Under the pieces are notes generated by a model. It was given only the letters and a program-made list of their open reading frames with translations. It did no database searches and was not told the DNA's origin. The position numbers were made by a program, and so were the translations under genes. A DNA stretch of 57,285 nucleotides, taken from assembly GCA_030444405.1 (NCBI GenBank), contig JARFPM010000016.1, forward strand, positions 1-57,285, given 5' to 3'. This document shows positions 17,077 through 32,039 of the stretch, one piece after another. Every line of letters starts with the position of its first letter. Within the stretch, counting starts at the first letter, position 1. The stretch comes from Nitrospira sp. (GTDB lineage: Bacteria > Nitrospirota > Nitrospiria > Nitrospirales > Nitrospiraceae).

Positions 17077-17092
17077 GCGTCTCCCCAGGAGA

Positions 17093-17710
17093 TTACAACT
17101 CGGAACTCGTACTAAGATCATGCACTGATCGAGCATGTTCCAAGTCGGAGGGCGTATTGATGTTGACCATGGAACGCCCATCGTGGTCAATTTGCCTGAT
17201 CTCACTTTCCGTAATCAAACGCACCCGAAGAGCGGGATGACCGATCATGCTCTGAATCTTCCTATTATGGACAGTCATCATTTCCTCAATAACTGGCAGG
17301 CAGTCTCGACCATAGACCGCATGGGTCGGCTGCAGACGAGTCGCCCACCGACTGATGACGATATCAGCCTGGTCTTTCAGACTAACGATATACCGAATGA
17401 CATCCTGGTTCAGGAATGGCATATCACAGGCAGCGAGAAAGATGTGTCTAGTCTTGGCGAGTCGAAGCCCTGTATACAATCCGCCGAGGCTGCCGCAGTC
17501 TGGAATAAGATCGCGGATGACCGGTACTTCTGCTTGTAGAGAGGGACTGTCTTGAGCGATGACTACGCATACCTGCTCAAACAATTGACAGAGAACAGCG
17601 CAGCTCCGTTCAAAGAGGGGCTGCTCACCGACAAGCATAAATCGCTTGTCCTCTCCCATCCTCTTACTTTTTCCGCCAGCCAGCAGTACGCCCGTTACAT
17701 CAGTGATCAT
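17093..17710 (-). CDS. mobA: molybdenum cofactor guanylyltransferase
   Basis: MobA, 205 residues, which couples GTP to Mo-molybdopterin to make the bis-MGD cofactor used by DMSO-reductase-family enzymes such as nitrite oxidoreductase and nitrate reductase. Seen: the nucleotide-binding motif LLAGGKSKRMGEDK at the N-terminus, AACDMPFLN and the C-terminal VNINTPSDL. The ATG at 17710 is chosen with AGGGC upstream; a GTG six bases earlier is possible. It lies just downstream of the respiratory locus but behind a terminator. Confidence 0.93.
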   Translation of the reverse strand: MITDVTGVLLAGGKSKRMGEDKRFMLVGEQPLFERSCAVLCQLFEQVCVVIAQDSPSLQAEVPVIRDLIPDCGSLGGLYTGLRLAKTRHIFLAACDMPFLNQDVIRYIVSLKDQADIVISRWATRLQPTHAVYGRDCLPVIEEMMTVHNRKIQSMIGHPALRVRLITESEIRQIDHDGRSMVNINTPSDLEHARSVHDLSTSSEL

Positions 17711-17736
17711 GAGCACGTGCCCTGTTTGAAAAAAAA

Positions 17737-17762
17737 GAGGGGGTAGGTTGCCCCACCCCCTC
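17737..17762 (-). terminator. rho-independent terminator of the respiratory locus
   Basis: On the minus strand the 8-base stem GAGGGGGT/ACCCCCTC encloses a ten-base loop and is followed directly by eight U residues. It begins about 40 bases after the end of the cytochrome gene at 17801 and separates that transcript from mobA. Confidence 0.88.
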
Positions 17763-17800
17763 TATCTTCCTACTGCGCTGAAGCGCGTCTTGATGAAAAG

Positions 17801-19594
17801 CTACAGCGTCTTCCCCCTTTTCTTGTTGGCACGACGGGTCAGAACCCAACCCTCCAGCAGTACCACGCCGACAGCGATAACGACCGGATAGATGTACGTT
17901 TCCTGAGGAACAGGCGGGTTCATGAATGTGTAGAAAAATGCGGAGACGGCCATCTTTCGGCCCGCATCTCCATTGTGACCATCCCATGCAAAAAAGACAG
18001 TGGGAATATATTGGCCTACTTCAAAAAAGGTATCTTCATCGTAATCTTGGTCTTTTTTATTGCCAACGGGTCGTTGAATCATGACATACCATCGCCCGTT
18101 CTTCCATTCACCCTTCAAGAGCTTCATGCTCTCTTCGTAGTTATCACGTTCCTCGAAGTCCTTATCCCATCCCGTCCCTTTAAACGCCCGGAGAGATCCA
18201 TCGGCCTCCCACTTAACAATGTCAACGGGGAATTGATCATTTGTCCCGAACAAATAGCGAGGCTTAATTGGAGCTGGTAATTCCTTCCACTTCACCGCTG
18301 TCTCGATAGCAATCGCATCGTTGTATACAGTGTAATTATTTTGCTTCGCCGCAATGGACCCCTCTTCACCGGTCTTGGGGTCCTGCTCTTTCACATCTAT
18401 ATTGACCTGGGTTGGAGCCCATGGGAGCTTGCCTTCAGCCACACTCTTCGTTCGGTCATCCCATTCAAGAAGATAGACAATGTATTTATCGTTATAGAGT
18501 GACCGAACCCAGATGTCGTCGATCCGATTGACAAAGTTTCTGGGCTTATGGGTAATTTGTCCACCCATCGCCACATAGCGCTTCGGAGCCTTTTGCCAGG
18601 CTTCATGTTCAATATCGGCCGGTATTTCGCCCTCAACCAGATCGGACGGTATCACAAAGTTAATTTTTGGCTTATCGGTTAATGGATCAATGGGCAGTGG
18701 ATTACCGAGAGGATCTCTTTCACACAGCGAATTGACAAAGTTTGCAATGTCCCACCGTTCATCGACCGTTGTGTTATCGGCGAAAGAGGGCATGGGTGTT
18801 CCGTTAACACCGGTCGAAAATGTTCGAAAGATGTTGCTGACGTTATAGGGATCCTGTCGGCTACCGCGGAAGTTCCAGCACTTGTGCCAATTGGCCGGCT
18901 GAATTGAGAATCCCCAGTCGTCTTTCAAATTGAAGGCGTTCCCATCCCCTCGACCTTCCATCCCATGACATTCGACACACTTTTTTTCTACGATTAACTC
19001 GCCACCGCGCTTCTTACTCTCATCAGTGGCTGGCTTGGGTTTCAGATCGGCCAACTGGAGGATGGTTTGCGTTTCGGACTGCTTGTCTGTGAATTTTCGG
19101 TCTTTGACGAGTTGGGTAGTAATAAAAGAGAGGACTTGCTGGCGCTGTTCTTCGCTCAGGATACCTTCCCACGGGGGCATTGCAGAACCGGGGAGCCCGT
19201 GCGTCACCGTTTCAAAGAGATCGTTCTGACCAGGAATTGGCTTTTTAGCGTCAAACAATGGGAGTTCACCGCTCGCTGTATGGCGAATTTTAAACGTCCC
19301 TTGATTAAAATTTCTCGGCCGAGGCCAGAGGCGATCGGCACCAGGCCCATCACCGGCGCCATCCACTCCGTGGCACCACACGCACTTGGTGAAATAGACT
19401 CGTTTCCCTGCTTCAATCATTTCTGCCGACGGTTCAGCTGCGAGATCACCCTTTTTGAACCCCTCGGGAAGCCCTTGAGCTGAAACGGACGAATATCCCG
19501 CACTCGACACTAGAACCACTCCGAAGGCAGCAACCGCGATGATTCCGGCCTTCTGAGTTATACTGTCCATCATGTTTGGCCTCATAATCTTCAT
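17801..19594 (-). CDS. diheme cytochrome c fused to an ethylbenzene-dehydrogenase-type heme-b domain (NxrC-like)
   Basis: A 597-residue exported protein with a signal peptide (about 15-40), two cytochrome c domains with CVWCH (71-75) and CVECH (206-210), a domain of about 325-560 resembling the gamma subunits of ethylbenzene, chlorate and DMS dehydrogenases and of nitrite oxidoreductase, and a C-terminal membrane helix (about 567-585) with a basic cytoplasmic tail. Known for that family: the domain binds heme b with Lys/Met axial ligands. No NxrA or NxrB gene lies in the window, so it may instead pass electrons to the bd-like oxidase encoded just upstream. A start at the internal ATG at 19573 (GAGG six bases upstream) is a good alternative. 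Confidence 0.85.
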   Translation of the reverse strand: MKIMRPNMMDSITQKAGIIAVAAFGVVLVSSAGYSSVSAQGLPEGFKKGDLAAEPSAEMIEAGKRVYFTKCVWCHGVDGAGDGPGADRLWPRPRNFNQGTFKIRHTASGELPLFDAKKPIPGQNDLFETVTHGLPGSAMPPWEGILSEEQRQQVLSFITTQLVKDRKFTDKQSETQTILQLADLKPKPATDESKKRGGELIVEKKCVECHGMEGRGDGNAFNLKDDWGFSIQPANWHKCWNFRGSRQDPYNVSNIFRTFSTGVNGTPMPSFADNTTVDERWDIANFVNSLCERDPLGNPLPIDPLTDKPKINFVIPSDLVEGEIPADIEHEAWQKAPKRYVAMGGQITHKPRNFVNRIDDIWVRSLYNDKYIVYLLEWDDRTKSVAEGKLPWAPTQVNIDVKEQDPKTGEEGSIAAKQNNYTVYNDAIAIETAVKWKELPAPIKPRYLFGTNDQFPVDIVKWEADGSLRAFKGTGWDKDFEERDNYEESMKLLKGEWKNGRWYVMIQRPVGNKKDQDYDEDTFFEVGQYIPTVFFAWDGHNGDAGRKMAVSAFFYTFMNPPVPQETYIYPVVIAVGVVLLEGWVLTRRANKKRGKTL

Positions 19595-19628
19595 TATGTC
19601 TGGTTTGGCATTCTAAGGAATATGGCGA

Positions 19629-20666
19629 CTAATCCCAGGTTCGTGGGTAGTAGCCTGTGTGCCAATATTCAAACAAAACCACTTTCCAAATTTCATCCAC
19701 TGTCAGGTGTTGCTCCCAGGGGGGCATGACTGATGCCCAAGGGAACCCTTCGTTGGGTAACCCGATCCCACCCTTCGCAACACGCCAGAAGATAAAGGTT
19801 TCTTGAAGTTGGGCAATTGTGCCTGGATCGGTGAAATTTGCCGGAATTGGATTAAAGGCGAAGGCGTGGAGTCCTCGACCATTCAAATTATCACCATGGC
19901 AGAAATGGCAGTTCTGAAAGAATATCTCGCCACCCTCTCGCACATACTTGAGGTAACCCTGATTCTTATCATCCCATGGGTTGGCATTCGGCTTCATCAA
20001 ACGACCCATACCCTGCTCAACAATATTGGCGTTCGAGAACTCTTGATCATATTTCCCTTCCGGATTCACGCGGTAAGGGTTCTGCGAGGTCTGCAATGTA
20101 TAGGTCTTCCCATGAACCTTGGTGCTCGCCGGTGGCGCTGGATGAACGGTTCGTAACTCGATCGGTTCCTCTGACTTGGGCATCATGGCGTTAAAAGAAA
20201 ATCCACCGACAAGAATTGGAATGGCAACAAGGTACGCGTAGCGGAGGAGCCTCTTCATTCCGGTCTGCGCATCGAGTACGTTCATGATGGGCTGCTTGAA
20301 TTTGTTCCAGTCTTCTTCATTAGCAGATACCCACATAAACACTGTAACAAGGCCCACCGTTCCATACATAGCACGGACGCTGAAGGGGATGGGAGGATAG
20401 ACACGAAACTTAAGATAGAGCATCAAGAAGACCCAAAAGCCGATCCCTTGCCAAAAACGCGGGATGGCCATCCCCATAGCACCCATGATATAGCTCAACC
20501 CGGTAAACCCGATCACATAACATGCTACTTCGAGCAGCATCTGAATCGGCATATACCCCTCGACCAACCGTATCGTGGTTGAAGGAACTACATCAAAAAC
20601 CATCCCGCCCAGAAGGAGAAGTCCAGCCACTCCGATCAGGGCACCGAGAGACATCAACGCTTTCAT
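19629..20666 (-). CDS. membrane-anchored monoheme cytochrome c
   Basis: A 345-residue protein with about four hydrophobic helices in the first 115 residues, another at about 146-160, and a periplasmic cytochrome c domain with one CHFCH heme site (253-257) and a candidate Met ligand in SVMPPWEQHLT. The start is the ATG at 20666 with AAAGGGAG seven bases upstream; a TTG two codons earlier is less likely. It lies 34 bases before the diheme/EB_dh cytochrome gene and 45 after the next cytochrome, clearly one operon. The helices before the heme domain suggest a subunit of a larger integral complex. No named family is recognised. Confidence 0.85.
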   Translation of the reverse strand: MKALMSLGALIGVAGLLLLGGMVFDVVPSTTIRLVEGYMPIQMLLEVACYVIGFTGLSYIMGAMGMAIPRFWQGIGFWVFLMLYLKFRVYPPIPFSVRAMYGTVGLVTVFMWVSANEEDWNKFKQPIMNVLDAQTGMKRLLRYAYLVAIPILVGGFSFNAMMPKSEEPIELRTVHPAPPASTKVHGKTYTLQTSQNPYRVNPEGKYDQEFSNANIVEQGMGRLMKPNANPWDDKNQGYLKYVREGGEIFFQNCHFCHGDNLNGRGLHAFAFNPIPANFTDPGTIAQLQETFIFWRVAKGGIGLPNEGFPWASVMPPWEQHLTVDEIWKVVLFEYWHTGYYPRTWD

Positions 20667-20711
20667 CGGCAAACTCCCTTTACTCTCCGCATGACAGGCA
20701 CCCGGAGGCTA

Positions 20712-22016
20712 CTATATTTTTGGTGGAGGCGCTCCTGTCTTTACCTGTGATAAATAATCGACAATCTTCTTCAAGGCACCAGCGCTCAGTTTTTGTCCGA
20801 AGACTTTTGGCATGGTGTTATCAGGGAAGGGCTTGACCACAAAGGCACTGGGATCTACGATAGACTCCATAATGTATTCAGTGGGTGATTTGGCGGTTCC
20901 TTTATAGGTTGGGTCCTTAATACGTTGTGAAGCGGTTGTCCCCTCTTCCAGCTTAGGTCCGATGGTTCCCACCGCCCCCGGGATCCCTGGAATCGTATGG
21001 CAGGAAATACATTGACCCTTGGCAAAAATCTGATCTACCGGCTCCGATCCATCAGCCATCAGGGAAGTGGCTCCAGCAGGCTTTTCATCCGCCTGCTTAG
21101 GACGATCAGCTTCCGGGATAAACTTCTCGTACGACTTCACTAGGTCCTCGAACGAAGGAGGATCTATCCCTTCGCGTAGATACATCCAAGCATCCACAGC
21201 TGCAAGCTCTGGAAGACTAAGCGAAATAGGTGGTTTATGAATAGCGGGCATCGGACTCTGCTTGTCATTCGTTCCCTTGACTCCATACCCAGCCACGACA
21301 TAGCAACTGGGACAGGCATGCGATTCCGCAATATACTCTTGGGCGGTTTCTGCGGTCCCCGATCCCGGGAAAGCCTCTTTGACTTCGTATTCCCGCTTTG
21401 ACGGATTACCTTTAGAATACTTTGGATCGTCCAACCGTTCATTTCCACGCGTTGGAAGACCCAATAAGTTTGGAGCTCGCTCACCCAGCATGCCAGCATG
21501 AAACGCATGACAGAGGGGACATTGCCCCTTGCCGATTGCGCCTTGCTCTTTATTCTTCCCGACACCTCCAAAGATAATCTTTTCACCTTCATCCGCCAGT
21601 TGTTGCGGGGTCATCGAATCCCACGTTTTCTTTTCCTCTACTGGCGGGAAACCACCCTCGACTTGCGGAAGCCAGTTTCCATAACCGGAAAGAAATGCGG
21701 CGACAAAGAACATCATCCCACCGATCTTCAGTAAGGCACCAAGATTGGTGAAGTACAGAGCCATGATGAAAGTCGTCACCGTGATCATCACGAGGGATAC
21801 GGGTAGCAAGCGGCTTTCGCCATAAAAATTCGTCTTGTAATTGGCGATCGCCATAAACAAAAGGAAGCAGGAGATAATCCCAATAAACGTCTTGAACACC
21901 GCGCGCTTCTTTGCGGCAGGATCACCGATAGATACTTGAAAATAAACCAGCAGACCCGCAAGGATGGCCAGAGCCATCCATCCCATGGAGAACGCTTCAG
22001 AAATCAGATTACCCAA
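20712..22016 (-). CDS. membrane-anchored diheme cytochrome c
   Basis: A 434-residue protein: four hydrophobic helices (about 10-28, 40-58, 70-90, 97-113), then two periplasmic cytochrome c domains with CPLCH (166-170) and CISCH (336-340), separated by a Pro-rich linker near residue 285-325. A third CxxC motif, CPSCY (235-239), lacks the heme-ligand histidine. The start is an unusual TTG at 22016, supported by AGGAGG eight bases upstream. It follows the bd-like oxidase gene after 76 bases and probably passes electrons to it. No closer family is recognised. Confidence 0.85.
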   Translation of the reverse strand: MGNLISEAFSMGWMALAILAGLLVYFQVSIGDPAAKKRAVFKTFIGIISCFLLFMAIANYKTNFYGESRLLPVSLVMITVTTFIMALYFTNLGALLKIGGMMFFVAAFLSGYGNWLPQVEGGFPPVEEKKTWDSMTPQQLADEGEKIIFGGVGKNKEQGAIGKGQCPLCHAFHAGMLGERAPNLLGLPTRGNERLDDPKYSKGNPSKREYEVKEAFPGSGTAETAQEYIAESHACPSCYVVAGYGVKGTNDKQSPMPAIHKPPISLSLPELAAVDAWMYLREGIDPPSFEDLVKSYEKFIPEADRPKQADEKPAGATSLMADGSEPVDQIFAKGQCISCHTIPGIPGAVGTIGPKLEEGTTASQRIKDPTYKGTAKSPTEYIMESIVDPSAFVVKPFPDNTMPKVFGQKLSAGALKKIVDYLSQVKTGAPPPKI

Positions 22017-22092
22017 GATCTTGACCTCCTGCGGCTAGTGCGAGGTGAAATACATCTCTCGCTGTCGCGCCAACCGCGAATAAGAACGTCGA

Positions 22093-24009
22093 TTAGTGAC
22101 TAGCAGCTGGCTGCGGCACACTTCCCGGGATTCCAGCTCTTGACTCCACCGGGACCTTCTTCGCGGTCAGGCTGCCGAGCCAGAAGACAAAGAGAATGCT
22201 AATCCAGAAAAATAACACGTTGGCCGAAATCATGTTTGCCGCAAATCCCACCGTATGGGTATATGCCCAGGGCGAGTTATCCCTCATGATTTCGTTGACA
22301 TGCCAGAACAGCCGGACCGATGAGCGAATATAGCCCATCAAACCCATCATCCAGGTAAAGGCAGTGGCCAACATAATGAGCGCATACTGTGAACGGGCGG
22401 AAATTTTTCCCCATTCAATCGGCCCCATCTGTTTGGCCCCCTTCATCATGACGCTGTTAAGGGCGAACATGAAGAAGAGGCACGACAACGTGGTCGCCAC
22501 CTGCGGGACAGACAAACCAACGCGTACGTTTGCCGGAATGTAATACCCGTACACGGCGAGGAAGATAATATTGAAATACGCACAGGCAAAGAACACACCC
22601 ATAAAAATATTGCCGAACTTTGCCCATGAGACGGTTGATACTTTATTACCCCTCATGTACCAGACAAAACTCAGCACCGTGGTCGTAATAATGACGTTGA
22701 TGCCACCGTTCTTCGCCGACATGACCCCATAGTTACCCAAGACAGGGTGCTGCTGACCTCCCATGGCCTTCAATTCGGCTGGCGTCATGACCATCGTGTG
22801 AGGAGTGATGAACACCATGTAGCCACAGGCAAGAATAAACACAAGATACTTAATGTATCGTTGATATTTCTCCGCACCTCGCATGCGGCCCATGGCCTGC
22901 CAGAGATAATAGTTAGTGCTCAAGAACAGTATCCCAATCATCGTAGCCTGGATGATAAACAGCCAGGCAAGCAAACCGCCCATCAACGTGATTCCCATCT
23001 GCTGGCGATACGCATACACTTCGCGCATCAGCCAATAACCAGCAAATGGCAACGGAATCAAGAAGGCCACCCCTAGCGCCATGGCAATGTAGCCCATCCA
23101 ATCATAATGAGCTCGATCTTCATCGGTCTTCGATGCCAAAAACTTGTACGCAGCATAGGCGGCGACCACACCGCCTCCGAAGGCCATGTTTCCGAGGATG
23201 CGATGGAGATTGAGGGGGTTCCACAAAGCAGTATGGATGACGTGCCAGATATTCCCAAGATACCGACCCTGCTCATCGACGCCAGCCGGTGACATCATAA
23301 AACCGATCCAGGAATTTGCGAGGAACATGAGCAGCGTACCGATGACGTTCAAGATCACCGACATGCTCAAATGAATCCACTTCAGGAATCCCTCCTTCAT
23401 CTTATCCCAGCCGTAATAGTAGATGTAGAGAGTCCCGCTCTCAGCCACAAACATCAAGGCATAGATGTGCATGACAGGACGGAAAATACCGGATAGGTAA
23501 GAGAAGAACGCCGGATATAAAGTCAGGAACGTAAAAATCAGAATACCACCAAGAATAGCCGTGAGAGAGTAGGCCGTAAGACTGATCTTAATAAAATCAT
23601 AGGCCAACTGATCGTAACGCTTGGCGAGCGCCTTATCCTTCGTCACGACACCCATGAACTCGATGATCATGCAGAAGATAGGCACAGCCAACACGAAGCT
23701 GCCATAATAGAGATGCTGCTGATTGGCGAACCAGAGCAACACACGGCTCTCGAAGTTGTACCTCGGATAGTCCTTGGGACCATCCGTTGTCTTAGGGGCG
23801 GGAGCACCAACCACAATACCTTCCGTCTTATAATAAACATCCCGGCCCTTCTCGACTTTATCGCCATCCTTCTTTGCCGCATCGCCAGCAGGAGCATCTC
23901 CACCGATTGCCGGTGAAGGCAAAGCTACGACGATCGGAAGCAGAAGGAGGCCAACCATCATGCAGAGCGCCATGATCGAAAAGACGCGCTTGCCGGCTAA
24001 AAGGCCCAT
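22093..24009 (-). CDS. cytochrome bd-like oxidase subunit I, copy 1
   Basis: A 638-residue polytopic protein distantly related to CydA. Seen: an N-terminal hydrophobic/signal segment and an extra 50-residue periplasmic stretch, then His99 (NQQHLYYGSF, in the place of the CydA heme-b595 ligand), Glu190 (FVAESGTLY, like CydA Glu107), FLANSWIGFMMSPAGV and His269 (NLHRILGNM, like CydA His186). The canonical quinol loop and GWxxxExGRQPW motif are missing; MGYIRSSVRLFWHVNE stands there instead. A CydB gene is absent. Known: bd-like proteins of this type have been proposed as terminal oxidases in Nitrospira genomes. Strong ribosome-binding site AAGGAGG. Electron donor (cytochrome c rather than quinol) and oxygen reduction are inferences. 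Confidence 0.85.
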   Translation of the reverse strand: MGLLAGKRVFSIMALCMMVGLLLLPIVVALPSPAIGGDAPAGDAAKKDGDKVEKGRDVYYKTEGIVVGAPAPKTTDGPKDYPRYNFESRVLLWFANQQHLYYGSFVLAVPIFCMIIEFMGVVTKDKALAKRYDQLAYDFIKISLTAYSLTAILGGILIFTFLTLYPAFFSYLSGIFRPVMHIYALMFVAESGTLYIYYYGWDKMKEGFLKWIHLSMSVILNVIGTLLMFLANSWIGFMMSPAGVDEQGRYLGNIWHVIHTALWNPLNLHRILGNMAFGGGVVAAYAAYKFLASKTDEDRAHYDWMGYIAMALGVAFLIPLPFAGYWLMREVYAYRQQMGITLMGGLLAWLFIIQATMIGILFLSTNYYLWQAMGRMRGAEKYQRYIKYLVFILACGYMVFITPHTMVMTPAELKAMGGQQHPVLGNYGVMSAKNGGINVIITTTVLSFVWYMRGNKVSTVSWAKFGNIFMGVFFACAYFNIIFLAVYGYYIPANVRVGLSVPQVATTLSCLFFMFALNSVMMKGAKQMGPIEWGKISARSQYALIMLATAFTWMMGLMGYIRSSVRLFWHVNEIMRDNSPWAYTHTVGFAANMISANVLFFWISILFVFWLGSLTAKKVPVESRAGIPGSVPQPAASH

Positions 24010-24081
24010 GGAATACCTCCTTGATACACTTACGTTAAAATTTACAAATTACCGGTAATATCCGATCACATCCTCGCAGGT

Positions 24082-24213
24082 TTAGTTACGGAAGAGGTAC
24101 CAGAAATCCAACCCCTGCATATCCATAAGGTAGTGATCGACAAAAACAAAATAGCCAACCGTGATAATAAGGGAGACAATCACTGCAACAACAGGATTAT
24201 TCAGCGCGCTCAT
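24082..24213 (-). CDS. 43-residue single-helix membrane protein upstream of bd-like oxidase copy 1
   Basis: A small gene: ATG at 24213, TAA at 24082-24084, 43 residues, with AGGAG about nine bases upstream. It has one hydrophobic helix (PVVAVIVSLIITVGYFVFV) and a short polar tail ending in GLDFWYLFRN. It is followed after 72 bases by the bd-like oxidase gene on the same strand. Canonical cytochrome bd enzymes have one-helix subunits (CydX, CydS, CydH/Y) of 30-45 residues; size, topology and position are the same here although the sequence is not recognisably CydX. I infer a small subunit or assembly factor of the bd-like complex. Confidence 0.75.
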   Translation of the reverse strand: MSALNNPVVAVIVSLIITVGYFVFVDHYLMDMQGLDFWYLFRN

Positions 24214-24254
24214 TTCCTCTTTCTCCTCTGCCGACCAAGTCAATCAATTGATAA

Positions 24255-24260
24255 ATTATA
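24255..24260 (-). promoter_or_regulatory. candidate -10 element of the bd-like/cytochrome operon
   Basis: On the minus strand a perfect TATAAT occurs 42 bases before the ATG of the 43-residue protein. No good -35 hexamer is seen at 16-18 bases; the nearest is TTTGTG at a short spacing. The surrounding 24214-24550 stretch is markedly AT-rich compared with the genes, as expected of a promoter region. Confidence 0.35.
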
Positions 24261-24480
24261 CGGACAGGCCCCTCACACAAAGAGAGGCGCCATCAAAACT
24301 CAACAGGGACATTGAATGCCAGCAAACCAGTAGAAAAACCATAATCCAACAGCACACGTGATGTAGAAAATCATTTTGCCGACTTTTATCTTAATTTCGC
24401 TGTCAGGGGTAGCTGTGGCCATGGTTGTTTTGACTCCCGATCAAGATAGTTGGTGGGTGGTTCAGAGTTACTGCATTTTC

Positions 24481-24509
24481 TTGACAGGCACTAGGCCCTG
24501 TGTTATCAA
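24481..24509 (+). promoter_or_regulatory. candidate sigma-70 promoter
   Basis: TTGACA (24481-24486), a 17-base spacer and TATCAA (24504-24509) on the plus strand. The predicted transcript start near 24516 would leave about 30 bases of leader before a small gene that has its own ribosome-binding site. Confidence 0.5.
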
Positions 24510-24546
24510 AATTGCGTCGCTTGTGCGCCAAGCAACAGGAGAAACT

Positions 24547-24651
24547 GTGTCGAAGAACTCAAAAGTGTTTGACATTATAGTTTTGGTCGGTATGGTTGTC
24601 AACATCATTTTGGCCGTGTTTTTGATCCTCTATTACTTTGATTTTCTGTAA
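24547..24651 (+). CDS. possible 34-residue single-helix membrane protein
   Basis: A GTG start at 24547, with AGGAG at 24537-24541, opens a 34-residue frame: a short charged N-terminus (SKNSKVFD) then an uninterrupted hydrophobic helix rich in Ile, Val and Leu, ending in YYFDFL. The frame could begin further upstream (TTG at 24376), but the added part looks non-coding. A candidate promoter lies just before it. The gene is divergent from the 43-residue membrane protein and convergent with the SUMF1-like gene. It could be another small subunit of the respiratory complex. Such short hydrophobic frames can arise by chance, so the call is moderate. Confidence 0.45.
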   Translation: MSKNSKVFDIIVLVGMVVNIILAVFLILYYFDFL

Positions 24652-24656
24652 ATTCA

Positions 24657-25553
24657 TCAGGCTTTTTTCTTTTCCTCTTCTCTCATTCCCGTCTTCGAAA
24701 TTGCGCAGCGAAATCCGATCGTCTCATCTCGAAAGTCCGGCATCATCTTGCTTCGACTGGTAATTCGAACATCACCTCCGGTCGTCGTATAGCCTCCGCC
24801 GCGAAGCACCCGATATGTACCATACTCTGGGCTCGGTGGGGCCTGCTCCGGCGAGCTCTTGTAGTATGTTTCATCGTACCAATCGTCCACCCACTCGATG
24901 ACGTTACCCGCTCCATCCATCACTCCATAAGGACTCTTGTCAGCCTGAAAACTTCCCACCGGCGCGGATACCTCAAACCCGTCCGATACTCGGGCCCAGT
25001 TGGCACCACTGGCCTGCTCTGTGTTCCCCCATGGCCAGAGCCGTCCGTCACTACCCCGCATCGCCTTTTCCCATTCCGCTTCCGTCGGAAGTCGCTTTCC
25101 CTTCCAGCGGCAATACTCCATCGCATCATCCCACGATACATAGACGACCGGTTGATTTGCGCCTTTCATCTTTCCACCGCTCTTGGCGTAACGGGCAGGC
25201 AGCCCGGGCTTCCGATGGCCGGTCGCCATGACGAACTGCTGATAGTGATGATTCGTCACTTCGTACCGATCGATAGAAAACGCATCCAAGTGGATGGTTC
25301 GCTGCGGCCGCTCATCAAACCCCCCGCTCTCAGTTCCACGAACGAACGGCCCCGCCGGAATCGTCACCATCTCATCCGGAATAGGTTCCTCTCCAGGAGC
25401 GCTATCTGCCACCGACTCAACTTCGGCGCTAGTTCCAGGCGCCGCCTTTTCATACGGCGTTACGGTAGTCCCTCGCAAAATAGCGACAACAGGCATGGCG
25501 GCACAGGCCAACACGACGAATAGGAAGACGACCTTGAACTTTGTTTCCAGCAT
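24657..25553 (-). CDS. membrane-anchored FGE/SUMF1-fold protein, catalytic cysteines absent (copy A)
   Basis: A 298-residue protein with an N-terminal membrane helix (about 7-26) and a formylglycine-generating-enzyme (SUMF1) domain from residue 60: IPAGPFVRGTESGG, DAFSIDRYEVTN, VYVSWDDAMEYCRWKGKRLPTEAEWEKAMRG, GAGNVIEWVDDWYD and RVLRGGGY, ending GFRCAI. True FGEs oxidise a cysteine of sulfatases through a copper-binding cysteine pair just after the RGGS motif; here that stretch reads TTTGGDVRITSR without cysteine. It is thus probably non-catalytic, a carbohydrate- or protein-binding or assembly factor. Its neighbour at 25560 is a paralogue. The location inside the oxidase locus suggests a job in building or holding that complex. 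Confidence 0.88.
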   Translation of the reverse strand: MLETKFKVVFLFVVLACAAMPVVAILRGTTVTPYEKAAPGTSAEVESVADSAPGEEPIPDEMVTIPAGPFVRGTESGGFDERPQRTIHLDAFSIDRYEVTNHHYQQFVMATGHRKPGLPARYAKSGGKMKGANQPVVYVSWDDAMEYCRWKGKRLPTEAEWEKAMRGSDGRLWPWGNTEQASGANWARVSDGFEVSAPVGSFQADKSPYGVMDGAGNVIEWVDDWYDETYYKSSPEQAPPSPEYGTYRVLRGGGYTTTGGDVRITSRSKMMPDFRDETIGFRCAISKTGMREEEKKKA

Positions 25554-25559
25554 ACCGGC

Positions 25560-26477
25560 CTAGGATTCAGGAACACTCCCGGTTTGGTCGAGATCGCTCG
25601 CGCAACGAATACCAATCGTCACATCCGTCCGCCAATGTTTCGCGGCAAATCGTTTTGACAGCCTCGCATTATGTTCAGTTTCCCGCCATGAGCCGCCACG
25701 CACGACTTTGAGATCGGCGCTCTCCGGTCCCTTAGGATCACGAAATGGTGATTTCTTATAGTAGTGTTCGTCGTAGGAGTCCTCAACCCATTCGGCGACA
25801 TTGCCCGTCATGTCATGGAGACCGTAGGGACCTCGTCCCGCATCGAACGACCCGGGCGGAGCCAGATATTTATACCCGTCCTCACTGCCGTCGACATTGG
25901 CGGCGTTCGTGACAAATTTATCCCCCCAGGGATATTTTCTCTTACTCTCACCACGACCGGCTTTTTCCCACTCGGCTTCCGTTGGAAGACGCTTGCCAGC
26001 CCACTTGCAGTAGGCTGCCGCGTCGTCCCAGGAGACACTCATAGCCGCAAATTCCGGCTTCAAAATCTTTGACTGATCATCGTCGAACACCTCGATCCTA
26101 GGTGTGCCACGCTTGGTCATCCTGGCGAACCGCTGATATTCATCTTGCGTGACTTCTTTTCGGTCGAGATAGAACCCCTTCAGGTAGACCTGATGCTCAG
26201 GAGCCTCGTCCGGATCACCATCATTGCTTCCCATCGTAAAAGGACCCTCCGGAATCTGGACCATTTCCCGGCCTTCATCTCCGATTTTGGTCTTGTACAT
26301 CGAGAAATCCTGAGCCGGGAGGCTGCTCGCCGTCGGTCGGGCTTCCGACTTCACGGACGCGGCAAGCTGTTTCATTTGCTTTGCCTTATAGGACTCATAG
26401 GCCAGCAAGCCGATCATAAGAAAGAACGACGCAAACACAAAAATAATGGACCCGACTAAAACACCCTTGTTTTCCAC
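25560..26477 (-). CDS. membrane-anchored FGE/SUMF1-fold protein, catalytic cysteines absent (copy B)
   Basis: A 305-residue paralogue of the next gene with the same plan: an N-terminal membrane helix (about 7-27), then the SUMF1 domain from residue 68 (IPEGPFTMGSNDGDPDEAPEH, KGFYLDRKEVTQDEYQRF, SVSWDDAAAYCKWAGKRLPTEAEWEKAGRG, DMTGNVAEWVED, RGGSWRETEHNAR, IGIRCA). The position of the FGE cysteine pair is RETEHNARLSK, so formylglycine activity is unlikely. Start is a GTG with AGAGGT upstream. The end is six bases from the start of copy A, implying translational coupling. The two copies differ enough to have separate partners. Confidence 0.88.
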   Translation of the reverse strand: MENKGVLVGSIIFVFASFFLMIGLLAYESYKAKQMKQLAASVKSEARPTASSLPAQDFSMYKTKIGDEGREMVQIPEGPFTMGSNDGDPDEAPEHQVYLKGFYLDRKEVTQDEYQRFARMTKRGTPRIEVFDDDQSKILKPEFAAMSVSWDDAAAYCKWAGKRLPTEAEWEKAGRGESKRKYPWGDKFVTNAANVDGSEDGYKYLAPPGSFDAGRGPYGLHDMTGNVAEWVEDSYDEHYYKKSPFRDPKGPESADLKVVRGGSWRETEHNARLSKRFAAKHWRTDVTIGIRCASDLDQTGSVPES

Positions 26478-26508
26478 GAAGACCTCTTTAGTCGAGAGTG
26501 CCTACCGA

Positions 26509-26868
26509 TTAGGATGGCGACGTCTCGACCTGTTCCGATGCCGCCTTCTTGGCAGCACGCACATCGAGCAACATTGAAATCTGGACACCCAGAAAGCCAC
26601 CCATAGCAGCACCCGCTCCGGCACCAACCCAGATTCGATCGACGCCGGCCATGAACCAAGCTAAGGCACCACCCAGGATGGTCCCGACAAGAATGCTGAT
26701 GAGAAATCGTCGCCCGCCGAGAAAACCGACCACAATACCGAGCGCGAGCCCAACAGCGATGGCTACAGGCATCAGCCCACCACCCATGGTCATACCGATC
26801 AGAGTCCCGACGGTACCCATCACGACTATCCCGAGCGCAATGTCAAATGCCTTGCTTCTCGCCATCAC
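26509..26868 (-). CDS. small glycine-rich membrane protein
   Basis: A 119-residue protein with three or four hydrophobic helices containing many Gly-Gly and GxxxG pairs ([45 protein letters not shown]), then a short charged tail. Such glycine-zipper helices pack tightly in membranes. No family is recognised. It lies between the DUF3047-like and SUMF1-fold genes in the oxidase locus, with 30-base gaps on either side, so it belongs to the same transcription unit. Confidence 0.8.
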
Positions 26869-26898
26869 ACCGATCCTTCATAGACCGAGCGCAGACCG

Positions 26899-27552
26899 CT
26901 ACTTAGCCGGAGCGGCAATCAGCGGGCCAAAATCAATTTCAACTCCAGGCGCCGCGATGATGGAAATCCCCCATGCCTTCTCCGCCGGCTCATGTTTATG
27001 AATCCGCTTAAAATCCTCGTACACATTCACCCGCTCCTCAAACCATTGCCCGACCTCCTTCGTTCCTGTCTGGACGACGATCTCGGAGCCGCTAAACATG
27101 CCCCCTTCCGTCAAGGTGCCATCCGGTTTCGACTCGCTCCATACATATTTCGTAAACACCGGGATAAAGAGGAGATCGGTATCAAGGGACGCGTAGACCG
27201 CAGCCAGCAGCTCGTTCCCAGCCGTTGCCTTATTGAGACGCCACCGCCAGGTCAGTATAGGATAGGCCTTGGGATCCCAATCGATTTTCTTTTTCTTGAT
27301 CCGCTGCCCAGCATCTTTCGCCGACAGAAAGTTCGCGCCGTTCTCCGACCGTACCTTGTAGGCTTCACGGCCTTTCGATTGACTCCGCTGATTTTCGTGT
27401 TCCCACAGAGAAGGAAACCCGTCCGCTTCCTTCATTTGGAAATCCTCCAGCACCAGGATCTGCCCTTGGGCAACGACGGGAACTTGCCAGGCAAACACAC
27501 CAACCAGAATGCTGAGAACGGCTGCGGCATACATCGGCGCACGGCACTCCAT
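26899..27552 (-). CDS. DUF3047-like secreted protein
   Basis: A 217-residue protein with a signal peptide (AAAVLSILVGVFAWQVPVVAQG) and a mature part like the DUF3047 family: FQMKEADGFPSLWEHE, ILTWRWRLNKA, YASLDTDLLFIPVFTKYVWSE and a C-terminal segment with EDFKRIH and an ISIIAAPGVEIDFGPLIA ending. The fold is probably a periplasmic beta-sandwich; the function of the family is unknown. The start at 27552 has AGGGA nine bases upstream; an ATG nine bases earlier is too close to that site. It follows bd-like oxidase copy 2 after 16 bases. Confidence 0.8.
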   Translation of the reverse strand: MECRAPMYAAAVLSILVGVFAWQVPVVAQGQILVLEDFQMKEADGFPSLWEHENQRSQSKGREAYKVRSENGANFLSAKDAGQRIKKKKIDWDPKAYPILTWRWRLNKATAGNELLAAVYASLDTDLLFIPVFTKYVWSESKPDGTLTEGGMFSGSEIVVQTGTKEVGQWFEERVNVYEDFKRIHKHEPAEKAWGISIIAAPGVEIDFGPLIAAPAK

Positions 27553-27568
27553 AGACTTCATTCCCTTT

Positions 27569-29443
27569 CTATGTTTCTTGCGATGGAACGGGCGAAAGCA
27601 AGGGCGCCTGTCCCTCCAGGAATTCCTCACCCATCACAGGCTGCTGCCCCCGCTCACACATCCAGAACAACGCGAGAACTGCTGCCCAAAATACCACCAT
27701 GTTCACCGTCACCATCTTGGTTGCGTATTGAAGGTCCGGGGTGAAGGCCCAGGGCGAGACGTCAGCCATCAACTCACTGATGTGCCAAGACAATCGTCCC
27801 GATGAGCGGATGTATCCCATTAACCCCATCACCCAACTAAACGACGCCGCCAACCCGAATAATCCGACCATGCCACGCAGTGGAATCTTCCCCCACTGGA
27901 TCGGACCATGCACGACCGCCCGTCTGAGCATCAAGCGATTGACGACGGCACCCGCCATGATCACCGTCAGCGTCGTGAACGCTTGCGGAGCCGAAAGACC
28001 GACGCGAATTTTCGCCGGCAAGTAAAACCCATAGATGGACAACCAGATGATGTTCAAGGCGCCGACAAGATACAGCACCGTGATTACGATATTTCCGGTC
28101 CTGGTCCACGAAATGGTCATCGTTCGATTCGCTCGACGATAGTACAAAAAGCTGAGCGCAGTGACGAGGATCAGGATGTTGACGGCCCCGTTCTTGGCCG
28201 ACATGACTCCATAGTTGCCGATCACCGGATGCTGGGCGCCTCCCATGGCCTTGATCTCACTGGCAGACGTCAGGAGTGTGTGAGGCGTCAGCCAGATGAA
28301 GAGCGCCAGCATCAACACACCCAGTAAGAGTTGGTAATAGGGCTGATAGCGCTCACCCCCCTTGATCCGCGCCATGCTCTGCCATAGATAGTAGTTGATT
28401 CCCAGAAACAGGACACCGATCAAGAGTGCCTGGACCACAAACAACCACGTCAGCAATCCACCCATCATGGTGACACCCATGGTCTGGCGAAATACGAACA
28501 CCGACTTCATCAACCAGTAGCCGGCAATCGGCATGGGAATGAGCGCACAGACTGTCACGAATAAGAAGACATATCCCACCCAATCGAAATAGGCCCGCTC
28601 TTCGTCGGTCTTGCTGGTAAAAAACCGATAGCAGGCATAGGCCAGTACCACTGCCCCGCCGGACATGATGTCTGCAAGGAAGCGATGAACGTTGAGCGGG
28701 TTCCAGAGCGCGGAATGCAGCAGATGCCAGGCATTGCCCAGAAACCGTCCCTGTGCATCCACCCCAGCGGGAGACATCATGAAGGCGGACCACGCGTTCG
28801 CCATCATCAACAACGCGGTCCCCACAATATTAGTCAGAATGCCGATTGCGGCATGGATCCACTTCATGCCTCGATCCGCCATCCGATTCCACCCGTAGTA
28901 ATAGACGATCAGGAGCAGGGACTCTCCGACGAACACGGCGGCGTAGGCCGGCATGAACCCCTTGAACGTTCCGCCCATGTACTTCATGAAACTTGGATAG
29001 AGCGTGATGAACATCGTCAGCATCACGCTGCCGATGAGCGCCGTGACCGACAGGGCCAAGACCGCCACCTTCGCGAGATCTCTCGCCAGACCATCGTAGC
29101 GAAGGGCCAAGGCCGGCTTCTTGGTGATCAAACCAAGAAACTCGAGCAACGCGCAAAATAATGGCAGAGCGAGCACAAATCCGCCGAAATAGGTATGTTG
29201 CTGTGTGACAAACCACACCAGCAGCCGACTGTCCAACGAGCCGATTTGCGGATAGATTGTTTCATGTGGAGTGGGAGCCGCCGGTCCCTGCGGAGTGCCT
29301 TCAGTGCCAAAGTACACATCCGTCGATGATTCGGCTAATGACAGGCTGAGCCCATTCCACCCATATCCAATGGCGATCGCGACAAATGCCATGCAGATTG
29401 CAACATTGATCGCAGAGCGGGTCATCATAAATCCTCGGCTCAT
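27569..29443 (-). CDS. cytochrome bd-like oxidase subunit I, copy 2
   Basis: A 624-residue paralogue of the gene at 22093. It shares QQHTYFGGF (His83), FVGESLLLIVYYYGWNRM (Glu174), MANAWSAFMMSPAGVDAQGRFLGNAWHLLHSALWNP-type segments, NVHRF (His253), MGGAQHPVIGNYGVMSAKNG and MGLMGYIRSSGRLSWHISELM. Like copy 1 it lacks the GWxxxExGRQPW motif and any CydB partner. Different from copy 1: the residue aligned with His181 of copy 1 is a proline (Pro165), and it carries a shorter N-terminal insertion. It overlaps almost head-to-tail with a polytopic protein upstream (five bases) and has no c-type cytochrome gene of its own next to it. Function as oxidase is inferred. Confidence 0.83.
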   Translation of the reverse strand: MSRGFMMTRSAINVAICMAFVAIAIGYGWNGLSLSLAESSTDVYFGTEGTPQGPAAPTPHETIYPQIGSLDSRLLVWFVTQQHTYFGGFVLALPLFCALLEFLGLITKKPALALRYDGLARDLAKVAVLALSVTALIGSVMLTMFITLYPSFMKYMGGTFKGFMPAYAAVFVGESLLLIVYYYGWNRMADRGMKWIHAAIGILTNIVGTALLMMANAWSAFMMSPAGVDAQGRFLGNAWHLLHSALWNPLNVHRFLADIMSGGAVVLAYACYRFFTSKTDEERAYFDWVGYVFLFVTVCALIPMPIAGYWLMKSVFVFRQTMGVTMMGGLLTWLFVVQALLIGVLFLGINYYLWQSMARIKGGERYQPYYQLLLGVLMLALFIWLTPHTLLTSASEIKAMGGAQHPVIGNYGVMSAKNGAVNILILVTALSFLYYRRANRTMTISWTRTGNIVITVLYLVGALNIIWLSIYGFYLPAKIRVGLSAPQAFTTLTVIMAGAVVNRLMLRRAVVHGPIQWGKIPLRGMVGLFGLAASFSWVMGLMGYIRSSGRLSWHISELMADVSPWAFTPDLQYATKMVTVNMVVFWAAVLALFWMCERGQQPVMGEEFLEGQAPLLSPVPSQET

Positions 29444-29447
29444 ACCT

Positions 29448-30515
29448 CTACCCCTTCGTTCCGGTCTTGCCGAGCGCTAACTCCCCAGCCGCACCATCAG
29501 CACCGACCGTCTTCCCAAGAATTCCCATCACAAACGGGCAACGCAACATTCCACTCGACAGCTGTGGGGCCTGTTCATCCTCCACATGACGTCGATCGCC
29601 CAGATAGTACCCATACACCGCCATCATCGCCGTGACCATCGCACCCATCACGGCCGCAGCACTCAGCGTAATCGTCGGCTGACGGACGACAAACAACAGT
29701 ACGCCCATCGTCACCAGATAGTAGGTTGAGGCAAAGGCCATCCCGGGCCACCACCAATATTTCATCAATTCACCCGGCGCAGTCTGACGGAACGTGTGCG
29801 CCCATGGGACGGACGGATAGAGCCCGCCAAAATAGGCACAGAGGGCCAGACCACCGCCGAGGACTGTCACGCTCAGCAATTGCACCAACGCGGCTCCCTG
29901 AGCATCCACCATGGCCGCCCCGGATAACGATGCCATCGCACCCAGGCCAAGACCCACCACGGCCCAGGGCCCCAGTTGCCAAGCCCTCCGCTGTACCAAG
30001 ACAAGAAGTTGTTCTCCATCGGGGAACGTGAGAAATGGTCGCCCTAACAGTGAAAGCTTGCGCACATGGCCAATCTCAAACGCATCCCGTGCGACGGACG
30101 TGCAGGAGATGATGATCGCCATCATCGCCGGTCCGTCAGGGTGCTGGAAATAACTGTAGTGCATGATCCATAAAAGGGTGAGCACCAACAGGGACAGTTG
30201 AATGCCATACACGGCTCCGATCCAACCGGCAAGCCAGCCAAGAAGACGCGCTCCATCTTGGCGCACAATGACAGACCAGGGAGCAGACCGCCCCACCCAA
30301 TAGGACAAGAGCGCCGTGACCATTGCCACCAGACTGCTGACCGCCAGCAAGACCAAGGGCTCAGTGATCGGCACAAGATGCTTCGCCAGCCGATACACCC
30401 CGAAGGCAATCAGTCCTGGCACAAACATGACAATTCGCTTTTGCCGGCGCACGGCATCTTCCGTCACCGCCAAGCTCAAGCTGGGAATTACGCGCAAGGC
30501 CATTCGATGCAACAT
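29448..30515 (-). CDS. polytopic membrane protein of unknown function
   Basis: A 355-residue protein with about eight hydrophobic helices (for example FVPGLIAFGVY, PLVLLAVSSLVAMVTALLSYWVG, LSLLVLTLLWIMHYSYF, AVVGLGLGAMASLSGAAMV, LLSVTVLGGGLALCAYFGGLY, STYYLVTMGVLLFVV, AVMGAMVTAMMAVYGYYLG). The middle shows a Yip1/DUF-like style but no sure family. It ends five bases before bd-like oxidase copy 2, so the two are translationally coupled and the protein may be the membrane partner of that oxidase in place of CydB. There are no obvious heme ligands beyond scattered histidines. Confidence 0.78.
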   Translation of the reverse strand: MLHRMALRVIPSLSLAVTEDAVRRQKRIVMFVPGLIAFGVYRLAKHLVPITEPLVLLAVSSLVAMVTALLSYWVGRSAPWSVIVRQDGARLLGWLAGWIGAVYGIQLSLLVLTLLWIMHYSYFQHPDGPAMMAIIISCTSVARDAFEIGHVRKLSLLGRPFLTFPDGEQLLVLVQRRAWQLGPWAVVGLGLGAMASLSGAAMVDAQGAALVQLLSVTVLGGGLALCAYFGGLYPSVPWAHTFRQTAPGELMKYWWWPGMAFASTYYLVTMGVLLFVVRQPTITLSAAAVMGAMVTAMMAVYGYYLGDRRHVEDEQAPQLSSGMLRCPFVMGILGKTVGADGAAGELALGKTGTKG

Positions 30516-30616
30516 ATATATCCAGGACTAAGGCTGCAGGACTGAGGACTGGGTGGGGAGGATAGTTCGTTTCATATTTTCTCTCCTTCTAAGCACTCAG
30601 TCCTCAGCACTCGTGA
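30516..30616. repeat. intergenic inverted repeat of the CTCAGCACTC type (A)
   Basis: Contains CTGAGGACTG (30542-30551) and its reverse complement CAGTCCTCAG (30598-30607), 46 bases apart, and one copy of CTCAGCACTC. The same short string recurs in the next gap (31109-31211). There is no U-run, so it is not a simple terminator. Confidence 0.55.
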
Positions 30617-31108
30617 CTATTTTGACGCGGCCATCCCGAAATACTTCGCCTTGATCTCTTCCATCAGCGATACCGTAATGCGAGACAGCCCACGATCTGC
30701 TGCGGTGCGCTCGAGTTCAATCCGCGCCATGGCACGAACCGGTGCCGGTACCCGTTCCAACCGCCGCTCCGCTTCAGGGTCCCAGTCGAGGCGCTCCCCA
30801 GTTCGGGGACGGAGTAGCGTCTCGCACGTGACCACACGCTGACCCTGGCGACGGATATCCTGCTCCACCTCGTCCCGAACCAGCACGGCTACATACGGCG
30901 GCATGCGGTCCAATCGGTGCAACGCCTCATCGGTCCAGAGCAACCGATCGACAAGTCCATATGTCTGCCCCTCCGGTACATCGACGCCGACTTTCAGACC
31001 ACAACCTCTACACTCGGAACGAATAAACCATTGAGGGGCACCACCTTCTCCAGCACGCTCTTCAATCCCTTCCGTATGCATCCATCGACCACAGCCGCAG
31101 GTCAACAT
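30617..31108 (-). CDS. zinc-ribbon protein with two PCP_red-type domains
   Basis: A 163-residue protein with a possible N-terminal zinc ribbon (C4, C6, C33, C36) and two copies of a short helical domain like the C-terminal PCP_red module of light-independent protochlorophyllide reductase (ChlB/BchB): WTDEALHRLDRMP...VTCETLLR (about 58-100) and WDPEAERRLERVP...ITVSLMEEIKAKYFG (about 109-157). In photosynthetic bacteria that module helps bind the tetrapyrrole substrate. Here there is no chlorophyll pathway in view; the domain occurs in many non-photosynthetic genomes with unknown role. It sits in the respiratory locus, so a link to heme or Fe-S proteins is possible but unproven. Confidence 0.78.
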   Translation of the reverse strand: MLTCGCGRWMHTEGIEERAGEGGAPQWFIRSECRGCGLKVGVDVPEGQTYGLVDRLLWTDEALHRLDRMPPYVAVLVRDEVEQDIRRQGQRVVTCETLLRPRTGERLDWDPEAERRLERVPAPVRAMARIELERTAADRGLSRITVSLMEEIKAKYFGMAASK

Positions 31109-31211
31109 CGCAAAGTACCAGTGCTGAGTAATGAGTGCTGAGACCTGAGCGAATGTCCAAGCAACGCCTCTTTCCGAACTCCTTTATCCATAGTACTCAG
31201 CACTCATGTCA
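31109..31211. repeat. intergenic inverted repeat of the CTCAGCACTC type (B)
   Basis: A perfect 12-base inverted repeat, ATGAGTGCTGAG (31131-31142) and CTCAGCACTCAT (31196-31207), with 53 bases between. A further copy of AGTGCTGAG stands just left of the first arm. The same string is found in the gap at 30516-30616, so this looks like a dispersed intergenic element of the genome. Confidence 0.6.
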
Positions 31212-31928
31212 TTACCCGATCTTGCCAGGATACAAGATGTACAACATCGTGTAGGTAAAGCTTCCCGTGACAAATAGGACGCAGTAAATAACCATCGTAA
31301 ATCGGCCGAGCGCGCGATGCCGCCGCGCGCCATCAGGCCAGATCCGTTGAATGGCCATCTCAATCGCGAAGACGAACGCCACCAGCGCGAGAAAGATCGC
31401 ATACACTTCCAACTTCCGCATCGAAAACCCAGCCGTGGCGACGCGCGAGAAAAATAGCCCGAGGACAACTGTGGCAATGCCACCAAAGATGAGACCCACC
31501 TTCTTCCATGTTGTTTGCAACAGCGATTCCCGAAGGGATCGCACCCCACTGATGAACTGCTGAGAGCGAAAACCGAGCACAATCATGTACACCGCCATGA
31601 TTAAGCCGATGATGACGAGAACAATGTGGAGCGTAAGCACCGGAATGAACACGTAATCATAGAGCGACTGCGAGCCACCAAACCCTTCCTTGCCCTCAAA
31701 CGCCAGGACTCCCAGCTGTCGAAACAGATAGTAGGCTATAAAGAAGCTGAGCATGGCAATCATGCCGCCCAACATCAGCCAATGGTGCGCATCGGCCTTT
31801 CGTCGGCGAGCCTGAACCCATCCCATGACAAAGAGCCCAGTAAAGAGCGTCGCCATCAGCTGACTGAGATCCGCTCCAGTCGTCGCATGTGTTCCAAAGA
31901 ACCCTGGTTCCCGTAACCAATCCATCAC
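31212..31928 (-). CDS. DUF420-like membrane protein
   Basis: A 238-residue protein with six or seven helices resembling DUF420 (YozB/CtaM): FTGLFVMGWVQARRRKADAHHWLMLGG, FFIAYYLFRQLG, YDYVFIPVLTLHIVLVIIG and, after an inserted segment (about 120-185), RRHRALGRFTMVIYCVLFVTG. Known: the Staphylococcus member CtaM is needed to mature a heme-copper oxidase, and the family has conserved His residues. Its place at the top of a bd-like oxidase locus suggests a comparable role in oxidase assembly; this is inference. The length is greater than the usual 130-180 because of the insert. Confidence 0.8.
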   Translation of the reverse strand: MMDWLREPGFFGTHATTGADLSQLMATLFTGLFVMGWVQARRRKADAHHWLMLGGMIAMLSFFIAYYLFRQLGVLAFEGKEGFGGSQSLYDYVFIPVLTLHIVLVIIGLIMAVYMIVLGFRSQQFISGVRSLRESLLQTTWKKVGLIFGGIATVVLGLFFSRVATAGFSMRKLEVYAIFLALVAFVFAIEMAIQRIWPDGARRHRALGRFTMVIYCVLFVTGSFTYTMLYILYPGKIG

Positions 31929-32039
31929 AAGATCCCATTACACACGCCCATGACTCATGAACCTATTCACTCCACTCACCTTCACTCCACTCACCAACAG
32001 ACCGATGTGCAAAACACGTCGTGACTACCCACCACCTGC
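31929..32039. repeat. gap with a 15-base tandem repeat
   Basis: Contains two perfect copies of a 15-base unit, TTCACTCCACTCACC, at 31966-31980 and 31981-31995, between the DUF420-like gene and the methyltransferase gene. No gene or terminator is seen. Confidence 0.75.

Follow-up and report, generated by a model that had tools for sequence, protein, structure and literature searches.

In Nitrospira moscoviensis, a highly transcribed gene cluster combines alt_nxrC_2, encoding a dihaem protein of 66.8 kDa with one transmembrane helix, with the genes for two membrane cytochromes c and for bd-like_3; every Nitrospira genome has bd-like_4 a few genes from it, and conservation of the cluster in anammox bacteria and Nitrospina has been noted (PMC6606698). 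The same or related modules have been discussed elsewhere (PMC3578206, PMC8026999, PMC12342949), and TO_1 (PMC9040806) is probably the same or a related module. Still unsettled in nitrite oxidisers are the route by which high-potential electrons from nitrite oxidoreductase (NXR) travel both to O2 and, uphill, to quinone, and the identity of the O2-reducing protein. Here we describe a locus at positions 17801-31928 of a 57,285-nucleotide stretch of Nitrospira sp. DNA (contig JARFPM010000016.1, hereafter the window). Its gene set and order, and the size and haem sites of its alt_NxrC_2, agree with those of the N. moscoviensis cluster, and the locus is therefore a new example of the already-published alt_nxrC_2/bd-like_3/bd-like_4 cluster. 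Our preferred reading, held with about as much belief as doubt, is that it encodes a membrane electron-transfer complex linked to NXR and cytochrome c, with a CydA-fold core, which perhaps feeds quinone and is not the main oxidase. The genes on which this reading turns are the following.

17801..19594, minus strand: alt_NxrC_2-type membrane-anchored dihaem cytochrome c with a C-terminal DMSO-reductase-type haem-b domain (two CXXCH; EB_dh 37.6 bits)
19629..20672, minus strand: cytc_b, membrane monohaem cytochrome c (one CXXCH)
20712..22016, minus strand: cytc_a, membrane dihaem cytochrome c (two CXXCH, kept in 19/19 relatives)
22093..24009, minus strand: bd-like_3, CydA-fold core subunit, 638 amino acids (aa) (Pfam Cyt_bd_oxida_I 72.7 bits)
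27569..29443, minus strand: bd-like_4, faster-evolving CydA-fold paralogue, 624 aa (Pfam Cyt_bd_oxida_I 69.2 bits)

The three c-type cytochromes carry 2 + 1 + 2 haem-c motifs, as do all 8-19 relatives counted, and their place in a conserved module upholds the link to cytochrome c made in the original prediction, which had read the locus as a cytochrome-c-driven oxygen-reducing or electron-transfer complex distinct from canonical bd enzymes. The alt_NxrC_2 product (597 aa, 67.3 kDa) carries two cytochrome c domains and EB_dh, and matches TIGR03477 at 6e-16, under the family cut-off. In the PDB, its dihaem part matches (E 4e-40) chain 6h5l_B, which bears only the name ‘conserved hypothetical cytochrome protein’.

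Relatives of bd-like_3 occur in 138 of 296 genomes in a phylum search, all listed Nitrospirales among them. The search for conservation across Nitrospirota that the original prediction had proposed found the gene set kept together, with the complete order in 12/12 Nitrospirales loci examined, from three families; chance is dismissed as an explanation for the grouping because the order is kept across these loci. Class-level relatives retain the core SUMF1, bd-like_3, cytc_a, cytc_b and alt_NxrC genes; bd-like_4, the DUF3047 gene, the glycine-rich protein and the membrane protein of no known family are absent within the fetched stretch. The module of bd-like gene, cytc_a, cytc_b and altNxrC is kept in Nitrospirales, in their class- and phylum-level relatives, in Nitrospinota and in anammox bacteria. 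In a tree made by quick search, bd-like_3 and bd-like_4 group with Nitrospinota sequences at an SH-aLRT (approximate likelihood ratio test) support of 100, and a larger group adding anammox sequences has 90, with bd-like_1 and bd-like_2 falling separate from both; some long branches meet in this tree, and the deep joins are tentative.

The CydA fold and the oxidase-type histidines

The Pfam Cyt_bd_oxida_I matches of bd-like_3 and bd-like_4 cover the N-terminal half only. The two proteins are 50% identical to each other and ~17% identical to solved CydA chains; between genera, bd-like_3 is ~90% identical and bd-like_4 72%. The AlphaFold model of bd-like_3 (pLDDT 81.5, pTM 0.81) finds its best structural matches in CydA of solved cytochrome bd enzymes (Z 29-34), including 7ose_A (Foldseek E 1.7e-8; Z 34.2 (VIA) over 349 residues, root-mean-square deviation 3.4), and its second-best in alternative complex III subunits (Z ~20). 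A likeness to ba3 oxidase (Z ~6.5) is too low to carry meaning. NCBIfam has no name for either protein, no solved structure of such a bd-like complex was found in a literature search, and no solved chain closer to bd-like_3 than canonical CydA was found. A CydA fold in common by itself shows no function.

The roles of the Escherichia coli CydA residues are established, and haem-ligand assignments in bd-like proteins rest on aligning them. H19, H186 and E107 of E. coli correspond to H99, H269 and E190 of bd-like_3, kept in all 12 Nitrospirales sequences; in bd-like_4 the glutamate at the E107 position is lost in 3/12 relatives. M393, E445 and E99 fall on A505, L557 and an alignment gap, a result that is alignment-dependent, the C-terminal half aligning poorly. 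R375-x4-E380 of bd-like_3 aligns weakly with K252-x4-E257, the quinol-site pair of the E. coli enzyme, a hint of a quinone site. CydB (PF02322) has no match in the entire host genome, which is 99.6% complete.

A second locus in the same genome allows a comparison. On contig C97 lie bd-like_1, a cytochrome c, Rieske and cytochrome b genes, bd-like_2, two cytochromes c and alt_nxrC_1. Its bd-like_2 and the three genes that follow are paralogues of the core four in the window (41, 25, 33 and 23% identity, the 33% of cytc_b holding over its length). This locus is the published candidate oxidase (NIDE0901, OR-N1/OR-N2), its function being presumed. One Nitrospira bd-like variant has been described as having all haem-copper-type ligands, with Gln and Phe replacing two of them in the conserved cluster (PMC8026999); haem or copper binding by these histidines is itself a published proposal. 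All five histidines are present in bd-like_2 (H428, H444-H445, H593-W-H595), whereas bd-like_3 has H404, Q420-H421 and F568-W-H570, and bd-like_4 has H388, Q404-H405 and S552-W-H554. Neither of the latter thus has the full set of the haem-copper-like (NIDE0901) proposal (TPH, HH, HxH), and the aligned positions are likely those behind the published Gln/Phe replacement.

Q and F occupy the two substituted positions in 12/12 Nitrospirales bd-like_3 and 3/3 Nitrospinota sequences; class-level relatives have Q in 8/8 at the first, and F in 5 and H in 3 at the second, anammox bd-like proteins have Y and D/N, and NXR-linked proteobacterial-type proteins have F and N (14/14). Members of the bd-like_2 clade have the full set, as do two further sequences (L052, L057), which come from phylum-level relatives basal to the bd-like_3/4 clade. 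Because these basal sequences keep it, the alignment suggests that the full histidine set was lost within the bd-like_3/4 clade.

Electron transfer to quinone or to oxygen

Sequence evidence ties the module to NXR, with which the bd-like_3 type often travels. Kuenenia NxrA, taken from a PDB alignment, served as the query that retrieved 80 named loci. In Burkholderiales, and likewise in several further lineages, nxrA is immediately preceded by a bd-like gene and the genes of two cytochromes c. Anammox genomes carry the bd-cyt-cyt-altNxrC series within the nxrA cluster, ~12 kb before nxrA, and in most of them no CydA-family protein other than its bd-like product was found; anammox bacteria are anaerobes. 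Three Nitrospirales genomes (loci L055, L180, L183) have an extra bd-like_3 copy, 74-78% identical, 370-420 bases before nxrA; in L055 a SUMF1-fold gene lies ahead of this copy. Other extra copies (L184, L185, L186) are solitary, near an smpB-like gene and gyrase-like genes, and have no cytochrome or nxrA match within the stretch.

It is doubtful that bd-like_3 and bd-like_4 are the O2-reducing enzyme, because two proposed oxidase histidines are missing from both and kept in bd-like_2, and because relatives sit in the NXR clusters of anaerobic anammox bacteria and beside nxrA in other phyla. The oxygen reductase of the original prediction is not supported on these grounds. We propose instead that bd-like_3 would form the membrane core of an alt_nxrC_2/bd-like_3 complex, with the dihaem and monohaem membrane cytochromes c and the NXR-gamma-related dihaem-c/haem-b subunit as a putative periplasmic electron-entry arm. 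This haem-b/c arm would take up electrons from NXR or from soluble cytochrome c and relay them to the CydA-fold core. With less certainty, it may be the quinone pool, not O2, that then receives them from the core (reverse electron transport), and O2 may be reduced chiefly by the paralogous bd-like_1/bd-like_2 locus. A wider version of the proposal, which we hold somewhat less firmly and with doubt prevailing, is that a CydA-fold lineage across Nitrospirota, Nitrospinota, anammox bacteria and Proteobacteria lost its oxidase-type histidines and became a quinone reductase driven by cytochrome c and NXR, with microprotein subunits.

Several observations weigh against a quinone-feeding complex tied to NXR. 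A published analysis found that three helices replace the Q-loop and that quinol-binding residues are lacking (PMC3578206). In two Nitrospinota genomes with the bd-like_3 and bd-like_1 types only (G306, G307), neither CydB nor COX1 has a match, and the genomes G131 and G271 each have a single CydA-family protein, of the bd-like_3 type, with no oxidase over the cut-off; if those organisms are aerobes, the bd-like_3 type may reduce O2. DUF420 (CtaM), encoded in the cluster, is a haem-copper-oxidase assembly factor in Bacillus, and the functional assignments in all papers found rest on sequence or transcripts. Lastly, 15 class-level genomes with the module are not among the NxrA matches at E <= 1e-150, so that NXR is not the sole partner of the module and its strict dependence on NXR is not supported.

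In a rival reading, which we regard as a possibility of roughly one in three, a cytochrome-c-driven terminal oxidase is formed by the complex of bd-like_3, either without bd-like_4 or with it as a CydA-CydA' pair; a module fitting this description goes by the name of TO_1 in Manganitrophus. An O2-reducing role is possible because neither CydB nor COX1 was found over the cut-off in the window's genome, and because of the G306/G307 and G131/G271 patterns; the same absence holds for a third Nitrospinota genome, G309. The kept H19, H186 and E107 positions and the DUF420/CtaM gene within the cluster also favour it, and bd-like proteins have been treated as O2 reductases (PMC9040806, PMC12342949). 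However, such an oxidase would have to work without the two histidines, relatives that are the sole CydA-family proteins of their genomes sit in the NXR clusters of anaerobic anammox bacteria, bd-like_2 of the same genome both keeps the histidines and adjoins Rieske/cytochrome b genes, and in Nitrospinota the bd-like_1-type protein is an equally good candidate. The window's genome also encodes a 443-aa COX1-like membrane protein (contig C40, L187:1894-3222) that has HxH/HH motifs and scores under the cut-off of Pfam COX1, and similar weak COX1-like matches occur in other Nitrospirales.

The tie to NXR allows another explanation, in which the complex acts mainly as a docking station, anchoring periplasmic NXR at the membrane and passing electrons to soluble cytochromes, the CydA fold serving as a structural element or haem wire without its own catalytic site. 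The NxrC-like subunit and the nxrA neighbourhood accord with this, and an anchor point has been suggested (PMC6606698). We consider it unlikely, as the module occurs in class-level genomes without a listed NxrA and bd-like_3 evolves unusually slowly (the ~90% identity between genera given above), as a catalytic core would. The comparison offers, in a single genome, a testable split between bd-like_2, with the proposed oxidase histidines, and bd-like_3/bd-like_4, without them.

Transcription units, small proteins and the accessory block

The locus holds 12 genes of useful size, all on the minus strand. Running from 31928 to 17801, the series opens with genes for DUF420, a PCP_red/zinc-finger protein, a membrane protein of no known family, bd-like_4, DUF3047 and a glycine-rich membrane protein, and continues with two SUMF1-fold proteins, two microproteins, bd-like_3, the two membrane cytochromes c and, closing at 17801, the dihaem cytochrome with EB_dh. 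The genes named in the original prediction (two CydA-like, cytochromes c, DUF420-like, SUMF1-fold) are all present where it placed them, and so is the terminator that it put at the end of the series (17763-17736, 12-bp stem, 7 T). Its gene list was accurate but incomplete, the DUF3047, PCP_red/zinc-finger, unassigned membrane and glycine-rich membrane proteins and the two microproteins having to be added. The elements framing the bd-like_3 genes are the following.

17736..17763, minus strand: intrinsic terminator ending the bd-like_3 operon (12-bp stem with 8 GC pairs, loop 4, tail TTTTTTT)
24082..24213, minus strand: smTM2, conserved 43-aa single-helix microprotein (present in 12/12 Nitrospirales loci)
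24300..24422, minus strand: smTM1, conserved 40-aa single-helix microprotein with C-terminus ...FAGIQCPC (IQCPC in 12/12 Nitrospirales loci)
24574..24602, minus strand: predicted bd-like_3 operon promoter, TTGACA-17-TATAAT (12-of-12 consensus match, kept in 12/12 loci)
24547..24651, plus strand: 34-codon membrane-peptide reading frame (intact in 12/12 Nitrospirales loci)

The match at 24602-24574 is the sole 12-of-12 sigma-70 promoter match in 17000-33300, and its sequence is kept in all 12 Nitrospirales loci; from consensus and conservation together it is probably a promoter. The terminator starts 38 bases past the stop codon of the last operon gene. Between the two, smTM1, smTM2, bd-like_3, cytc_a, cytc_b and alt_NxrC_2 form a conserved unit, probably a separate six-gene operon, and the SUMF1-fold, bd-like_4 and DUF420 genes are an upstream accessory block, Nitrospirales-specific in its full form. 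The original prediction had treated the genes as a single series; two transcription units are probable because bd-like_3 has its own predicted promoter and class-level relatives carry the core without bd-like_4 in the cluster. One 12-gene operon is ruled out as the simplest reading, the perfect and conserved promoter match sitting between a SUMF1 gene and smTM1.

The two microproteins are probably small structural subunits. Diverged counterparts of both lie ahead of bd-like_3 in several class-level loci, with smTM1 variants lacking CPC in L047, L053 and L056, and none was seen in the 900 bases ahead of Nitrospinota bd-like genes. The published descriptions of these modules that we found do not mention them, and they are two small candidate subunits for any purified complex. 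On the opposite strand, the frame at 24547-24651 encodes a single hydrophobic helix, and in 12/12 Nitrospirales loci its codons include both boxes (-35 and -10) of the divergent promoter that serves bd-like_3. Outside the promoter, the third position varies in 16 of 16 codons, the first in 7 and the second in 1. Because these changes concentrate at third codon positions, the predicted frame has the variation pattern of a real small protein, and promoter conservation alone is ruled out as its explanation.

The remaining genes lie upstream of the operon.

24657..25553, minus strand: SUMF1-fold protein 1, probably non-enzymatic (FGE-sulfatase 205.6 bits; no cysteine pair (RGGGYTTTGGDVRITSR))
25560..26477, minus strand: SUMF1-fold protein 2, probably non-enzymatic (FGE-sulfatase 190.2 bits; RGGSWRETEHNARLSKR)
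26509..26868, minus strand: small glycine-rich membrane protein (without a Pfam match; kept in Nitrospirales)
26899..27630, minus strand: DUF3047 protein (domain match)
29448..30515, minus strand: conserved multi-helix membrane protein of no known family (model pLDDT 84)
30617..31108, minus strand: CxC/CxxC (zinc-finger-like) + PCP_red domain protein (PCP_red 82.1 bits)
31212..31928, minus strand: DUF420 (CtaM-like) membrane protein (DUF420 71.3 bits)

Formylglycine-generating enzymes (FGE) have a pair of catalytic cysteines close to the C-terminal RGGS motif, and neither SUMF1-fold protein has a cysteine in that stretch. A formylglycine-generating function is ruled out for this reason, and a structural role appears more likely. 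Bacillus and Staphylococcus require the DUF420 or CtaM family to assemble their haem-copper oxidases, and in L050 and L056, too, a DUF420 gene lies close to the bd-like_3 module. The ‘assembly-type’ label of the original prediction is unproven, being plausible for the DUF420 protein alone. The membrane protein at 29448-30515 is kept in 12/12 Nitrospirales loci; neither Pfam nor NCBIfam has a match for it, and comparison of folds with the PDB gave none at E<=0.001. The NXR clusters of anammox bacteria and Proteobacteria also encode PCP_red domains (L081, L089, L104, L129, L141-L159), where they form the C-terminus of universal-stress-like or SPASM-like proteins. Beyond the block, an O-methyltransferase gene at 32040-33020 is syntenic with the cluster in 12/12 Nitrospirales loci.

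Comparison with known systems

From canonical cytochrome bd (CydAB), with which it shares the CydA fold (Z 34) and the H19, H186 and E107 positions, the complex differs in its extra helices, its lack of CydB and the missing counterparts of E99, M393 and E445. Together with the low identity to solved CydA, this bears out the prediction of a complex distinct from canonical bd enzymes. TO_1 of Candidatus Manganitrophus (PMC9040806), likened to the locus by text description, also pairs a bd-like protein with a periplasmic cytochrome b, but its host is a Mn(II) oxidiser. The anammox NXR cluster (Kuenenia, Brocadia, Scalindua) has the bd-like gene, two cytochromes c and a dihaem/haem-b NxrC-like gene in consecutive order; it differs in that nxrA follows in the cluster ~12 kb on, and in that its bd-like protein is longer (~680-725 aa) and of a separate lineage. 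In the Nitrospinota bd-like cluster (PMC3578206, PMC8026999) the bd-like_3 protein is 56-61% identical, with the same Q and F, and is accompanied by the same cytochromes and an alternative NxrC, whereas no SUMF1 genes, bd-like_4 or microproteins were found adjoining. Within the host genome, the bd-like_1/bd-like_2 locus has paralogues of the four core genes (bd-like_2, two cytochromes c and alt_nxrC), but has the full histidine set in bd-like_2 and adjoining Rieske and cytochrome b genes. Closest is the N. moscoviensis cluster, which by its published gene description has the same four core genes, a second bd-like gene nearby and a dihaem alt_NxrC_2 of similar size, and to which the present locus adds operon limits, the microproteins, the opposite-strand frame and the order of the accessory block.

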